A stretch of DNA of 41,294 nt from positions 1 to 41,294 of the forward strand of contig SUVU01000006.1 in NCBI GenBank assembly GCA_015061865.1, read 5' to 3'. Of the stretch, positions 1 through 27,806 are shown one piece after another. The notes under the pieces are model-generated. The model made no database searches, was not told the DNA's origin, and saw only the letters and a list, made by a program, of their open reading frames with translations. The position numbers were made by a program, and so were the translations under genes. Position 1 is the first letter of the stretch, and each line of letters begins with the position of its first letter. Source of the DNA: Lentisphaerota bacterium (lineage in GTDB: Bacteria > Verrucomicrobiota > Lentisphaeria > Victivallales > Victivallaceae).

Positions 1-114
1 CGAGTACGGTGCGGGAGTGTACTGCCGTACTCGACCGTACCGGCGCAGAAGCAAGGCGCGAAAGTGCCCGCGATGCGCCACCGACGGTTAGATTTTATCA
101 CAACAAATGGGACA
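1..114. repeat. Dispersed element R1, copy 1 (left-truncated by window edge)
   Basis: This is the right-hand part of an intergenic element that recurs at 26915-27108 and, in a shortened form, at 20913-20980. Over 1-114 it differs from 26993-27106 at about four positions only, so the copies are nearly identical. It begins with an inverted repeat, CGAGTACGG (1-9) and CCGTACTCG (25-33), and ends with the shared right end GATTTTATCACAACAAATGG. I see no coding potential of its own. It lies downstream of the minus-strand pgk terminator. Mobile, MITE-like or REP-like identity is an inference from copy number and identity. Confidence 0.85.
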
Positions 115-153
115 GAAAAAAATACAGTCCGCGCCCAAACTGGACGCGGACTG
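115..153 (-). terminator. Intrinsic terminator of pgk
   Basis: On the minus strand a perfect 9 bp stem, CAGTCCGCG at 125-133 with CGCGGACTG at 145-153 and an 11 nt loop, is followed by a near-continuous T tract (complement of the A-run at 116-124). It sits 12 bases past the pgk stop codon. Confidence 0.85.
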
Positions 154-20908: not shown

Positions 20909-20912
20909 CGGT

Positions 20913-20980
20913 ATTATGATTTGTCAAAAACATAAAACGGTTTGATTGCACCCGGTGGATTTTATCACAACAAATGGGAC
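20913..20980. repeat. Dispersed element R1, copy 2 (short form)
   Basis: It carries the same left end (ATTATGATT-GTCAAAAACATAAAACGG...) and right end (GATTTTATCACAACAAATGG) as the copy at 26915-27108, but lacks the internal 122-base hairpin block. The junction falls at a GAT trinucleotide present on both sides of the block in the long form. It lies between the lipid-kinase stop and the LacI-family start and could influence that gene's leader. Together with the ribosome site it fills the 99-base gap, and no convincing separate promoter is seen there. Confidence 0.85.
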
Positions 20981-21007
20981 AATAATAATTTAACAGGAGA
21001 ATAAAAT

Positions 21008-22012
21008 ATGCCGGTTCGGGTCTCTATGCGTAAAATTGCTGAAGTCGCCGGAGTTTCCGTAGCGACCGTGTCGCATGTGCTGAATAACCGCAGCAACATC
21101 TGCTCCGCCGCCACCGCCGAACGCATCCGTAAAGTGGCTGCCGAGCTGGGATACCGGATCAATTTCGGCTATAAACTCATGCACTCCATCCCCACCCGCA
21201 CCGTGGCAGTTCTCGCCGCCACCGAGTACGGGAGCAATAAAGAGTATATCCGGGAATTGACATTGAGATTATTGACCGAATTCGGCGATAACGGCTACGC
21301 CGCCTATTTTCATACCCTGCCGCTGTCGGAAACCGCCGCCCGTACCAAAGTCGATGAATTTCTCGCCCGGGGCGTGGAAAATTTCGTCTTTATCGGGATG
21401 CCGCTGGGCGTGGATAAAATCGTCGAAGATATCCAAAACGCCGGCGCCGGGATGATTTTCAACTCCGTTTCCGGCAACCGCCGCTACGTCGCCAGCGATT
21501 CCGCTTCCGCAGTGACGGAACTGCTGAATTACCTCCGGCAGCAGTGCGGAGATGATTTCCGTCTGTTCAGCACCGCTGCCACCACCAGCGGCAGAGATGA
21601 CCGTGCCGCCGCCCTGCGACGTACCTTCCCCGAACTGGAATTCTCCGCAATCGTCCGCCGTTATGTCGTCGAAATGCCGTCCGAAGGATTGATCGACGAA
21701 AACTATTTCGAGGTGATTTTTGATCAGGCACGCCGCCATACTGACAAATTGCTCCGGGAACAGCCGCAAATAAAAGGTCTGGCATATACCAATGACATCG
21801 CCGCTATGGGCGGAGCTACCGCCGTTATGGCTCTGAAACGCAATGATTGCATCATCACCGGTTTCAACGGCGATCGCGCCGCCGTCAACTTCCCGTACCC
21901 CATCATTTCCGCCCGCCCGGATATCGCCAAACTGGTGAAACTCCTAGCCGCTAAAGCCGTCAGCAAAGAACCCTGCGAAGAATTAGTCATGCCCAAACTG
22001 CTCTTCCCATAA
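21008..22012 (+). CDS. LacI/GalR-family transcriptional regulator
   Basis: The 334-residue product has an N-terminal helix-turn-helix (MRKIAEVAGVSVATVSHVLNN, about 7-27) with the hinge-region pattern ERIRKVAAELGY. A periplasmic-binding-protein-like effector domain follows (about 65-330), as in family members that sense sugars. AGGAG lies eight bases before the ATG. The neighbours do not reveal a regulon: a lipid kinase upstream, repeats and a surface protein downstream. The short R1 element directly upstream may contribute its leader. Codon use matches its neighbours, so there is no sign of recent transfer. The target sugar is unknown. Confidence 0.92.
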   Translation: MPVRVSMRKIAEVAGVSVATVSHVLNNRSNICSAATAERIRKVAAELGYRINFGYKLMHSIPTRTVAVLAATEYGSNKEYIRELTLRLLTEFGDNGYAAYFHTLPLSETAARTKVDEFLARGVENFVFIGMPLGVDKIVEDIQNAGAGMIFNSVSGNRRYVASDSASAVTELLNYLRQQCGDDFRLFSTAATTSGRDDRAAALRRTFPELEFSAIVRRYVVEMPSEGLIDENYFEVIFDQARRHTDKLLREQPQIKGLAYTNDIAAMGGATAVMALKRNDCIITGFNGDRAAVNFPYPIISARPDIAKLVKLLAAKAVSKEPCEELVMPKLLFP

Positions 22013-22551: not shown

Positions 22552-25500
22552 TTACGCCGTGATCTGCGCCAGTTTGATGGTTTTGTCTTCAGCGTTATAG
22601 GTCAGGCTGTAGCCGTCGATCGCAATGGCGGATTTGCCGTCCCAAAGTTGCGCTTCGCTACCGTTGACGGCGAATTTGGCGTTGGTGAAGTCGCTGATAC
22701 CCGCAACCGCCGTCCAGTTGGCTTCGCCTTCGGCGATGAAGTCAAACGTCGTGAAATCTTCAGTTGCGCCGGTTTCATTGTTGCGATCGCCGAGGTAAAA
22801 CTCGTTGACCGCCGTGAGCATGCAACCCTCGTTGATGACGAATTTGTCCACATAGTCGATCAGGTTGGCGGTAACGTTGGTTTTCAATTCGACCACCGTC
22901 GCATCGGCATAATCCATACCCGCACTGCTGACCCCGGAAAGGCGTTTCAGAACTTTTTCCGCACCGGCAAAGGTCAGGTTCACATTATCGACCCAGCTGT
23001 AACCATATCTGCCGCCCATAAAGATCGTGTTGACCACTGCCGCATCAGAAACGGTGATGTTCGTGGTGGTGACATAGGTTTTGCCGTCAGCGTTCGCTCC
23101 GGCACCGTAGAGGTAATCGACCGTGCCGCCGGAAATGATGACATTGGAAATGCCGACGTGGCTCTCTGCGCCTTTTTCCGCCCAGCCGCCCGCATAAATG
23201 CGGCTGTGATTGCCTTTGGTAATGGTGATATTGACGGTAGTGACTTCGGCTTTACCTTTGTCACGGGCGTGCGCACCACCATACATATTGGTCGAAACTG
23301 CACCGCCGTCGATGGAGATGTTGACTTCGGTAACTTTCAACTGCGCTTCGGCGGCGGCTTCCGCATCTCCTGCGTTACCATAGAGGTAGCCGCCCGCATA
23401 AACTTTTGCCGCGACTTCGGCAGTGCCGCCGATGAGCAATTCAACTTTATCAACTTCCGCAGTATTGCCCGCAGCAACATACGCTCCGCCGACGAGGTTG
23501 CTCTCAACTTTGCCGCCGGAAATTTTGGTGGCGATCTCGCTTCCGTTGTCTTTGGTCGCAAAGAACGTGCCAACTGCGCCGCCATCCATCACCGTCACAC
23601 CGTCACCGGTATAACTGGACTTGACCTCTTCACCGGAAATCTGTGCTTCGATCTCTTTCAGCAGCAGATTGCCGTTCACGACTTCCAGTGTCAGGTACGG
23701 ATCGGCTTTATCAGTGATCGTAAAGTCACCGATAGCGCTGACTCCGGTGGCGATCGTGACCGCTTCGCCCTGATAAAGCGCACCATTTACCGTCAATGCC
23801 ACATCGCTCAACGACTGATTGATAAAGTTGACTTCCGCAGTTCCGTCAAACTTCATGGTGCTGAGTTTGTCGTTGAAACTCATGCTGCCCAGCGAAATCG
23901 CAGTGGTGTTGCCGAAAACGAAGTCCGCATCGGTCACACTCACACTTCCTGACTCGACCGACAGCGAGGCATTCAGGTCGATTTTGCCGCTGAAAGTCAA
24001 ATTGGCATCGGCGTGTTTCAGGTAAATAATGTCCTCTGCCGTCAGGAATTTGGAATCGCTGATCGTGGCGGTCACATTGGTTATATAAACCGCATGGGCA
24101 GTATTGTTGTAGAACGTGGCACCGTCAATATGCAATTCTCCCAACTTGCTGCTGCCGACCACGCGCACTGCCGCATAATTGCTGTTGTTGATAAACGTGG
24201 CATCATTGACGTTGACCACACCGACATTGCTGTAAACCGCCCCGCAGCTGTTGCTGTCAAACAGGGCATTGGTGACTTTGCCATCCACGGTATTACCGTA
24301 AATATTGATGGTACTTTCGTTACCGTAAATTGCGCCGTGGGCGTCGTTGCTAGCAATATTTCCGCTGAATGTGCCGCCGTAAACATTGAGCGTGCCTTGT
24401 GAGTGGATCGCTGCACCGCGGCAGGTATCGCTGTCGCCTTTGCTGATGGAGTTGCTGAAAAACTTGCCGTCAGTGATATTGGCAGTTCCGGCATTGTAGA
24501 TCGCACCGCCGCCGTATCCGGCATTATTGGTACAAATGGAGTTATTGCTGAATGTCGTACCTGTCACATTGAGCGTGGCTCCACTGCCGTTGCAAATCGC
24601 CCCGCCATTGAAGTTCGCTCCGGGGTTGATGGCGGAATTTCCGGTAAAAAGACCGTTTTTAATGGTCAATTTGCCGTAATTCTCGATCGCACCGCCTGCC
24701 AATCCGGTCGGGGTGAAATTTTTCACCGTCAAACTGTCCAATGTGACATTGATATTGCCGGCAACGGTCATAAACCGGTTTGCTCCACCGGAAATCACCA
24801 CCGGTCCAACAGTATCATTGACCAGCATCAGATTGTTTTTTGCCGTGATCGCTTCGGTCAACGCTACTTCAGAAATCCCGAAACCAACGTAATTGTAACT
24901 GGATGCGACCGCCTGCGCCAGCGTGAATGAATCGGTGACTTTGACCCCGTTTTTGAGGAGTTTCAACTCATTGCCGGCGACAGTGACCGTATAATATTCG
25001 TCGTCAACAGAGATATAACCATCTTTATTGACGGCAAGATCGGTGTCCAGCGTGAAATTTTCCGCGGTGAAATTTTTCGCGATCGTCCGGGCGCCGGAGA
25101 ATTCAGCCGCATCAAGTTTGACGACCACCTTGACTCCGGTCAAAGTCTGCGACTTCATATCGACTTCCGCAGTACCGGCAAACGTGATAGTGTTGTTGCC
25201 GAGGAAATTGGTCACGCCGAAACTGATACTGGTGTCGTTGTTAAAGGTGAATGTAGCATTTTTTTCGGCATAAGCTGTTTTCTCTTTATCAGTATTCATG
25301 AAAAACGAGGCATTGAAAACGTTGTCGCCGGAAAAACGGACATCGGCATAACTGTAAAACGTATCTTTATGCGTCAAAAACTGACAGCCGTCGACCCAGA
25401 TGGTATTTGCGGCACCGTCGTTGCCGGTATAAATCGCACCGCCGTAATTTTTATTGCCGGAGGCAGTATTGCCGGAAAAAGTACAGTTAGTTACCCGGAG

Positions 25501-26736
25501 CGAACCGCTGTTGAGGATCAGTGCGCCGCCGCGGGAGCCGGTATTCGCAGAAAATTCAACGTCGGTAAACGTCACCATGCCGTTGATATAAGCCGCCCCG
25601 CCGTACGAGGTGGAAATATTGTTGCTGAATTCATCACCGGCAAACGACACCGTCCCGGCACTGATGTAGACCGCACCACCGCTTTTGCCGGTATTGGCGG
25701 TAAAAGTGTTGTCGGCAAAGGTCATGGTGTGAGTATCGCCGTTGAGCCATATTGCACCGCCATTTCCGGTAGGTGCGATATTGCCGGTAAAAGTGTTGCG
25801 CCGGATATCCAGATCGGTTTGGGTCGAATAGACCGCCCCGCCGTTGCCGGTGGCAAAGTTATCTTCAAAAACCGCATCGTTTACCGTGACTGCGGGATAT
25901 CCGAAAGAGGTGTTGTAGGCTCTGAATTTAGTGTAGATCACCCCGCCGTTGCCGGCGGTATTGCCGGAAAAAAGCGTTTTGGTGCCATCGGCGGCTTTGT
26001 TGATATTCAGGATCAATTCATTGTACGCCACACCGCCGCTTGACGCGATATTTTTGCTGAATGTCGCACCGTTGACATTGAATCTGCCGTGATAATTGCC
26101 GCCCCAGATCGCCCCGCCGCTGGTGGCAGTATTGCCGTGAAAAAGCATCGCTTTGCTGCCGGCTCCGCCGGAAATATTGACCCAGCCGGCACTCTGGGCA
26201 CTGATTGCCGCACCGACATCGGAGTGGTTGTAAGTAAATGTCGAACCGGAAATATTCATCGTACATGAGGCACTGCCCCACTGGTGGATCGCACCGTAAG
26301 CATCCATGATATTGCCGGTAAAAAGTGCATCATCGACCGTCATCGTGCCGCCGCGGTTTGCGATCAGGCCACGGGAGTCGGGAGCATTTTTCATATTATT
26401 GGCAGAGAAAGTCGAACCGGAAATCAATGCATTATAGCCGCTTTGACCGAACATATACAACAGTGAGGCACCGATCTCGGTACCGTCATTGCCGGTAACA
26501 ACGGTATCAATGAACGCCCAGTTGCCGCCCGTCAACTCCTTGGTGGAAAATGTGACGTTTTCCAGTTTGGTATCATAAAAGACCACCTTATTCATGCTGG
26601 TTGCAGCGAATTTGTCCGTTGTGGAGCCGGTGCCGGAAATATTAAACGTCACATCTCCCACGGTGATCGCCGGAAGCGCAGTTACGGTGCCGTCATTGGA
26701 ATAAATCACGGACCCCGTCAAGTTGATCTCAGCCAT
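22552..26736 (-). CDS. Giant Pmp-like right-handed beta-helix surface protein, no signal peptide
   Basis: The 1394-residue product is built from short beta-strand repeats. Residues 60-470 and 640-900 carry dozens of GGAIY/GGAV and FSGN/FTGN motifs, the pattern of chlamydial polymorphic outer-membrane (Pmp) repeats. Residues 1010-1280 carry a second repeat type with YAGG/YGGA and SISGG motifs. The start MAEINLTGSVIYSNDGT has no signal peptide, and I see no aromatic-terminated autotransporter barrel, so export must use another route. The ATG follows GAAAGG, and promoter and terminator are both clear. It is probably an adhesin or surface-layer component. Plus-strand frames inside are shadows. 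Confidence 0.85.
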   Translation of the reverse strand: MAEINLTGSVIYSNDGTVTALPAITVGDVTFNISGTGSTTDKFAATSMNKVVFYDTKLENVTFSTKELTGGNWAFIDTVVTGNDGTEIGASLLYMFGQSGYNALISGSTFSANNMKNAPDSRGLIANRGGTMTVDDALFTGNIMDAYGAIHQWGSASCTMNISGSTFTYNHSDVGAAISAQSAGWVNISGGAGSKAMLFHGNTATSGGAIWGGNYHGRFNVNGATFSKNIASSGGVAYNELILNINKAADGTKTLFSGNTAGNGGVIYTKFRAYNTSFGYPAVTVNDAVFEDNFATGNGGAVYSTQTDLDIRRNTFTGNIAPTGNGGAIWLNGDTHTMTFADNTFTANTGKSGGAVYISAGTVSFAGDEFSNNISTSYGGAAYINGMVTFTDVEFSANTGSRGGALILNSGSLRVTNCTFSGNTASGNKNYGGAIYTGNDGAANTIWVDGCQFLTHKDTFYSYADVRFSGDNVFNASFFMNTDKEKTAYAEKNATFTFNNDTSISFGVTNFLGNNTITFAGTAEVDMKSQTLTGVKVVVKLDAAEFSGARTIAKNFTAENFTLDTDLAVNKDGYISVDDEYYTVTVAGNELKLLKNGVKVTDSFTLAQAVASSYNYVGFGISEVALTEAITAKNNLMLVNDTVGPVVISGGANRFMTVAGNINVTLDSLTVKNFTPTGLAGGAIENYGKLTIKNGLFTGNSAINPGANFNGGAICNGSGATLNVTGTTFSNNSICTNNAGYGGGAIYNAGTANITDGKFFSNSISKGDSDTCRGAAIHSQGTLNVYGGTFSGNIASNDAHGAIYGNESTINIYGNTVDGKVTNALFDSNSCGAVYSNVGVVNVNDATFINNSNYAAVRVVGSSKLGELHIDGATFYNNTAHAVYITNVTATISDSKFLTAEDIIYLKHADANLTFSGKIDLNASLSVESGSVSVTDADFVFGNTTAISLGSMSFNDKLSTMKFDGTAEVNFINQSLSDVALTVNGALYQGEAVTIATGVSAIGDFTITDKADPYLTLEVVNGNLLLKEIEAQISGEEVKSSYTGDGVTVMDGGAVGTFFATKDNGSEIATKISGGKVESNLVGGAYVAAGNTAEVDKVELLIGGTAEVAAKVYAGGYLYGNAGDAEAAAEAQLKVTEVNISIDGGAVSTNMYGGAHARDKGKAEVTTVNITITKGNHSRIYAGGWAEKGAESHVGISNVIISGGTVDYLYGAGANADGKTYVTTTNITVSDAAVVNTIFMGGRYGYSWVDNVNLTFAGAEKVLKRLSGVSSAGMDYADATVVELKTNVTANLIDYVDKFVINEGCMLTAVNEFYLGDRNNETGATEDFTTFDFIAEGEANWTAVAGISDFTNAKFAVNGSEAQLWDGKSAIAIDGYSLTYNAEDKTIKLAQITA

Positions 26737-26821: not shown

Positions 26822-26914
26822 GTGCTGCAATCAAAAAAAATGACGCCTGATATAACAAATTTTCAGGTAATGTCCCAAATTTTGTGAAACATACATACAA
26901 GACCGAATGAACAC

Positions 26915-27108
26915 ATTATGATTGGTCAAAAACATAAAACGGTTTGATTGCACCCGGTGGATGCAGCGGGCGGCAATGTCGCGTTTTGCGCCGAGTACGG
27001 TGCGGGAGTGTACTACCGTACTCGACCGCACCGGCACAGAAGCAAGGCGCGAAAGTGCCCGCGATGCGCCACCGACGGTTAGATTTTATCACAACAAATG
27101 GAACAATA
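26915..27108. repeat. Dispersed element R1, copy 3 (full-length long form)
   Basis: This is the complete long element. Its left end is ATTATGATTGGTCAAAAACAT and its right end GATTTTATCACAACAAATGG, with a structured middle. The inner hairpin is CGAGTACGGT with ACCGTACTCG (10 bp), nested in weaker outer pairing (CGGTGG/CCACCG and GCGGGC/GCCCGC). The ends are imperfect inverted repeats (ATTTGT ... ATAAAA on each strand). Absence of an open frame with a ribosome site argues for a non-autonomous element or a structured RNA. It starts five bases from the HNH gene stop. Confidence 0.88.
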
Positions 27109-27112
27109 GGGA

Positions 27113-27409
27113 TCAGGACTGCTGTTCAAGTTCCCGCAGGATCATTTCGGCGGGGGTGAGGAATTTTTTCTGCTGATTGCAGTTCAAACAGCAGACCACC
27201 ATATTGCCCCGGGTGCTTCTGCCGCCGCGGGCGACCGGGACGATGTGATCCAGAGTCAACTCGTCCGGCGGAAATTTCTGTTGGCAGTAATGGCAGATAC
27301 CTTTGCGGAAAAGCTCCTGAAAATAGGGTGTTTTCCGCAATTCCCGGGCTTTGGCACGCTCCCGTTTGATGTGCGCTTCATCGCGCTTGATCTCGACCCA
27401 GTCATCCAT
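27113..27409 (-). CDS. Small HNH-domain nuclease-like protein
   Basis: The 98-residue product has a charged helical N-terminus (about 8-28, KRDEAHIKRERAKARELRK) and a compact HNH/zinc module: CHYC (39-42), DHIVPVARGG with Asp54-His55, Asn69 and CLNC (74-77). HNH folds of this type cut or nick DNA, but a biological target is not evident. The ATG at 27409 overlaps the response-regulator stop by eight bases (ATGGATGA), so the two are translationally coupled. A longer frame upstream lies wholly inside the regulator gene and is rejected. R1 copy 3 follows directly. Confidence 0.85.
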   Translation of the reverse strand: MDDWVEIKRDEAHIKRERAKARELRKTPYFQELFRKGICHYCQQKFPPDELTLDHIVPVARGGRSTRGNMVVCCLNCNQQKKFLTPAEMILRELEQQS

Positions 27410-27806
27410 TTTTATGCTGATCCAGAATCCGCCGGATCTCGCCGGCAACCACCGGCAGGCGGTGGGGTTTGGGCAGAAATCCGCAGGCACCGGCATCCAG
27501 CAGATCGGCGACTTCCTGCTCGGACACAAAACCGCTGGACAGCAGCACCTTCACCTCCGGGTCGATCGCTTTCAACCGCATAAAAGTCTGATGCCCGCCG
27601 GATTTGGGCATGATCATATCCAACAGCACCAGATCGATCTGACCGGGATTGGATTCATAGATTTCGACCGCATCCAAGCCGTTTTCAGCCAGCAGCACCG
27701 AATATCCCAACTCCTGCAGAGCGTCGATGAGAAAATCCCAGATAGTTTCGTGGTCATCCACGATCAGGATCGTCTCATTTCCTCCGGAAAGAGTATCATT
27801 TGCCAT
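27402..27806 (-). CDS. Receiver-only response regulator
   Basis: The 134-residue product is a single CheY-like receiver: acidic pair Asp17-Asp18 (ILIVDD), phosphoacceptor Asp63 (LVLLDMIMP), Ser90/Ser91 and Lys113 (FLPKP). There is no output domain, so it must act by protein contact or as a phosphate relay. The cognate kinase is not in this window. I chose the ATG at 27806 with AGAGGA upstream; ATGs at 27830 and 27839 are less well placed. It is coupled by an eight-base overlap to the HNH gene and diverges from the galactokinase gene. Confidence 0.87.
   Translation of the reverse strand: MANDTLSGGNETILIVDDHETIWDFLIDALQELGYSVLLAENGLDAVEIYESNPGQIDLVLLDMIMPKSGGHQTFMRLKAIDPEVKVLLSSGFVSEQEVADLLDAGACGFLPKPHRLPVVAGEIRRILDQHKNG

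Follow-up and report, generated by a model that had tools for sequence, protein, structure and literature searches.

The window, that is, the whole stretch of DNA that was analysed, is the entire contig C105 (41294 bp) and carries three copies of a dispersed repeat, R1, in the places where a preliminary description had located them. The longest is a nearly full copy of 245 bp with both terminal repeats (26866..27110, + strand, as delimited by alignment to the full form); position 26915, at which it was thought to start, lies inside the element, next to a 33-bp deletion, and the true left end is 26866. On one side the copy adjoins a 1394-aa frame (22552-26736) with Chlamydia polymorphic membrane protein repeats, an autotransporter-like surface protein; on the other lies a stand-alone HNH endonuclease-like frame (27113-27529), whose stop codon and the right end of the copy are 3 bp apart. 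The left terminal inverted repeat, GGTAATGTCCCAAATTTTGTGAAAC, occupies 26866..26890 (+), the right one 27086..27110 (+); within them, TGTCCCAAATTTTGTGA at 26871-26887 pairs with 27089-27105 with one mismatch, and the final two bases of the right repeat are degraded (GG for AT). Between the repeats lie a 120-nt covarying hairpin, termed core A (26955..27074, +; match to the R1 covariance model with E=1.5e-24), and the 122-bp block that is missing from the short form (26960..27081, +). The deletion, the junction of which is at 26912..26913 according to the alignment to the full form, comprises full positions 43-75 (numbering from TGTCCC), accounts for the difference in length from the 278-bp full form and has removed a -10 box; no other aligned copy has it. 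Comparison of the flanks revealed no clear target duplication left around the copy.

The second copy (20912..20986, +) is the core-less form with its left end truncated: the true left end was lost beside the stop codon of the upstream ORF, and a lacI-type gene (21008-22012) begins 22 bp downstream of the right end. This copy, initially placed at 20913-20980, does lack exactly the 122-base block, with GAT at both junctions (26960-26962 and 27082-27084 in the long copy), as had been described; that it has the same ends as the long copies does not hold, the true left end of the complete element being absent from it. The third copy (1..119, +) is the right part of a long one, cut by the contig end; the truncation described there (1-114) arose because the contig breaks inside the repeat. 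Approximately 24 contig ends of the host's draft genome fall inside R1 copies, which explains why such drafts break. This assembly break, the true ends of the element, an outward promoter and a second interior module (both below) go beyond the first reading of the sequence.

R1 as a transposed element

A full R1 copy is 278 bp long (GGTAATGTCCC...GGGACAATAAT). Comparison of the upstream sequences of all copies revealed a further 85 bp on the left common to most of them, which starts with GGTAATGTCCCAAATTTTGTGAAAC, the inverted repeat of the right end TCACAACAAATGGGACAATAAT. Being short, non-coding and bounded by terminal inverted repeats (TGTCCCAAATTTTGTGA / TCACAACAAATGGGACA), R1 has the makeup of a MITE. 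In the host genome (a draft of 2.35 Mb in 165 contigs, 76% complete) a 216-bp query gave 43 BLAST matches at E<=0.001 and the 68-bp short copy gave 65, both counts including pieces of single copies; there are about 41 distinct left and 42 distinct right ends with >=350 bp of flank. The end-repeat pattern TGTCCCAWWTKTTGTGA occurs 89 times, as opposed to once for a reversed-pattern control; given this difference and the 43 matches, R1 is not a chance repeat. The preliminary description had proposed a mobile cassette and had named what would speak against it: only three copies genome-wide, a place within a coding gene, or membership in a known REP family. What was found instead are dozens of copies of a non-coding element with 25-bp terminal inverted repeats, 8-bp target duplications and empty orthologous sites in two related species.

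The duplications were recognised among 27 complete copies from the host genome and from G029, a sister species: in 14 the 8 bp flanking the two ends are identical, and in 19 they have at most one mismatch, while shuffled pairing of the flanks gave a mean of 1.26 and a maximum of 6 (2000 trials). Beyond either border of these 8 bp the agreement drops steeply, and the duplicated targets are AT-rich; examples from other species are aagttgtt (L074), tttttctg (L080) and TATTTTTT (L079). The joined flanks of several copies were searched for in eight relatives, and for the copy on contig C82 (L035) both G017 and G010 show the same gene junction without the element; the empty sites pertain to this one locus, the others not being alignable across species. 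Since copies are about 95-98% identical within a species and 71-87% between species (the closest genomes, G029 and G017, reach 98%), the sequences indicate recent amplification in each lineage.

The interior of the element is interchangeable. That long and short forms exist was described correctly; that there are only two forms was not, as complete elements with core A (the full form), with core A and a module B, with module B only, with small partial deletions and with no core were all found. Four core-less copies of G029 (L093, L109, L148, L113) have the exact 122-bp deletion of the short copy in the window; three of them measure 146 bp between the outer TGTCCC and GGGACA, one is shorter, and in their target duplications 7 or all 8 positions agree. 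It follows that the short form transposed as such, and because core-less copies inserted separately, the core, rightly suspected to be removable, is not needed for transposition. Forms with module B that likewise have duplications of their own are present in the host genome (L044, L063, L125). Module B itself (CTTGTCACGGCGTAGTGCAACGAAG) is a second short hairpin at one fixed site of the element (L015, L035, L085, L183, L162) and is found in other species too. R1 is thus a transposed, non-coding element with an interchangeable interior and a conserved fold.

The transposase that moves R1 is probably of the IS256 type. About 180 bp beyond the matched domain of an IS256-family transposase gene in G017 lies an end (GGTAGTGTCCGAAGTTTTGCG) that is identical to the left end of R1 in 17/21 positions (0/1000 shuffles), and the end of an IS256 fragment in G013 agrees in 16/21 (15/1000 shuffles); the other end of the G017 copy (14/21, 217/1000 shuffles) is not above chance, so that a single G017 end carries the resemblance. 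IS256-type elements (prokaryotic Mutator) make duplications of 8 or 9 bp (PMC3942029), which fits the 8 bp of R1, an element that itself encodes no transposase. It is because of these similar ends and the typical duplication length that an IS256 link appears likely. Among the IS1595, IS1, ISL3 and IS256 elements examined in the genus, no autonomous element with the exact ends of R1 was found. Transposases of IS1595 and of IS1, the latter first guessed from the end GGTAATG, are absent from all 34 genomes of the genus, and ISL3 transposases are encoded in ten of them with no matching ends. No IS256-type transposase was detected in the host genome at 76% completeness; repeats are often lost from such draft bins. 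A 1.04-kb unit bounded by R1 ends in G008 (C49; L183, 733-1770) was read for a transposase, and none was found; inside it are direct repeats that belong to another family and look like nested insertions.

The core A hairpin

Nineteen cores from 16 genomes of the host's genus could be aligned without trouble, and RNAalifold predicts 39 pairs, 21 of them with double changes (79 cells). On this structure 94.6% of the cells pair, versus 84.2% in shuffled alignments and 32-46% in slid controls, and the covariation score is 0.341 versus 0.145 (shuffled) and 0.03-0.07 (slid); the structure was derived from the same 19 sequences, so that the slid control leans towards it. None of 500 shuffles reached the observed values, save one for pair types. 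The fold is kept in 37 sequences, including ones from other genera found later by covariance model, where the stems are rewritten or wholly different (TTTTGC...GCAAAA in L239, TTGCCG...CGGCAA in L242). In the apical helix an unpaired GA faces another GA, each conserved in 36/37 sequences. Wobble cells are G-T in 115 cases and A-C in 15, most of this signal coming from three positions; the polarity points to the + strand of core A. A pseudoknot between GAGTACGG and CCGTACTC, suggested by the sequence of one copy, was rejected, for in L073 the GGAC/GTCC changes favour the local hairpin, without a corresponding change in the 5′ GAGTAC. Rfam has no match at gathering over the window and none at E<=1 on a full copy. 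Covariation beyond chance, as expected of a functional non-coding RNA, suggests that selection maintains the fold of core A, read on the + strand and presumably as RNA; the structured-RNA part of the original proposal is borne out to the extent of this strong covariation.

The covariance model matches in 29/137 genomes of the order: 19 belong to the host's genus, 9 to four further genera within its family and one (G068) to a different family; the single copy in G068 carries MITE ends and may be a contamination. Phylum-wide (388 genomes), all 20 matches fall in the one family, to which core A is essentially confined. The end repeat is present in 21/34 genomes of the host's genus, and a core with MITE ends occurs in another genus, g33 (G117, L236). 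No MITE ends are visible in the inspected flanks of five cores of sister genera (L239, L241, L242, L245, L246); three of these (L239, L242, L246) are single cores downstream of tRNA-Asn, tRNA-Glu and tRNA-Gln genes, 5-15 bp from the 3′ end, in different genomes and always convergent to the tRNA gene. Viral contigs searched for the end repeat and the core-flank motif had no matches. Core A might represent a new class of functional structured RNA of this one family, an independent locus that was captured by a MITE with a promoter and is multiplied by it through genomes, a possibility that we put forward tentatively and rate somewhat below an even chance.

The main alternative is that the covariation arose by mutation alone, arm-to-arm template switching during replication having corrected long imperfect palindromes in what would be an ordinary MITE with no RNA function. 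Inverted and partly duplicated stem pieces among the variants (CTGCATCCACCG in L053, L063 and L044) fit template switching in hairpins. Such correction would erase mismatches too, yet the internal loops persist (the GA/GA in 36/37, G24, G27, A55, G73), as do the U-G pairs of three positions (in 26-30 of the 37 sequences), amid stems that have been rewritten, which makes this an unlikely account. Somewhat less probable still is that the core acts in transposition as a signal at the level of DNA, forming a cruciform or single-strand hairpin to which the transposase or a host factor binds: core and end repeats co-occur through most of the genus, and DNA hairpins do serve IS200/IS605-type and REP systems, but the core-less forms have 8-bp duplications of their own and distinct flanks, and the copies L239, L241, L242 and L245 of sister genera lack end repeats in the flank inspected. 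Acquisition by the MITE of a guide-RNA-like module from a TnpB/IscB system is brought to mind by a conserved structured RNA in a mobile element and by the HNH gene (27113-27529) adjoining the window copy; it is very improbable, as the absence of any Rfam match even at E<=1 argues against HEARO, no TnpB/IscB gene or shared gene was recognised beside the copies by predicted reading frames, and the HNH gene is short, stand-alone and a single neighbour. We give hardly any credence to R1 being a repeat of the REP/REPIN type that a RAYT (Y1) transposase mobilises, for although R1, like such repeats, is a dispersed intergenic palindrome with many copies, a hairpin and the letters GTGG, its 25-bp terminal inverted repeats and 8-bp duplications fit DDE transposition but not HUH/Y1 elements, and the foot of the core stem is not conserved between genera. 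An integron attC site was considered and set aside.

The predicted outward promoter and the probable role of R1

The left arm of R1 contains, on the minus strand, the sequence TTGACA-17-TATATT with TGn before the -10 box (11/12 matches), directed outward through the left end. At least ten genomes share this layout, one of them from another genus (L236), while the spacer sequence varies; the sigma-70 promoter sequence is conserved, and its activity is predicted from it. In the window copy (26866..27110) the -10 box is lost; but for this, the promoter would face the 22552-26736 frame. Genes to the right of R1 copies are co-oriented in 27/42 cases and genes to the left point left in 25/41, an arrangement that leans weakly towards a role as leader or promoter.

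Taken as a whole, R1 is probably a MITE family moved in trans that carries an outward promoter and a cargo interior, the selected hairpin of which would act in mRNA. A transposase encoded elsewhere, most likely of the IS256/Mutator type, would move the element by its ends, and insertion could switch on the gene to the left from the strong-looking sigma-70 promoter of the left arm. The interior is a cargo site for the 120-nt hairpin of core A, for the second short hairpin of module B, for the two together or for neither of them; because forms lacking core A transpose too, it is regarded as cargo and not as a transposition signal. Once transcribed, often in the leader of the right-hand gene, core A would fold into a long hairpin interrupted by two purine-rich internal loops, and a protein or double-strand RNase might recognise these loops and so set the stability or translation of the adjoining mRNA.

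The nearest parallel is the Correia element (CREE/NEMIS) of Neisseria, an intergenic MITE of about 100 copies with terminal inverted repeats, a sigma-70 promoter at its ends, several lengths and an RNase III hairpin in mRNA (PMC2649163, PMC10969869). R1 shares with it the intergenic location, the terminal repeats, the long and short lengths, the promoter and the hairpin; the descriptions of the ends set the two apart, the 26 bp Correia repeat standing against TGTCCCAAATTTTGTGA in R1. The target duplication of Correia elements is TA, that of R1 8 bp. As both ends and duplication differ, R1 is, by analogy, like a Correia element in behaviour, and nearest to it, without being a member. We know of no cross-genus covarying core of this kind in Correia elements. 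The pneumococcal BOX, RUP and SPRITE are intergenic repeats as well, modular or small, and their transcripts are structured (PMC10969869); they are unrelated to R1 in sequence, and the modules of BOX are in tandem whereas the core of R1 is swapped or lost. Literature searches, confined to open-access papers, turned up no such element in Lentisphaerae or Verrucomicrobia.

The unusual part of R1 is its covarying, dispensable core. MITE interiors are usually unconserved leftovers; that of R1 keeps its fold across genera by compensatory changes and yet is dispensable for movement, so that it can be tested directly whether a useful RNA is being spread by a transposon. R1 also adds a portable, conserved and putatively active promoter to an uncultured lineage, putatively of gut or rumen; prepilin-type and regulator genes suggest that this lineage is Lentisphaeria-like (Victivallales). 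A second, related MITE was observed (L128; G000:C114, ~995-1202): it measures 208 bp between its TGTCCC ends and has a different interior, diverged ends (TGTCCCAAAATTGGTGATAC...) and near-matching flanking repeats.
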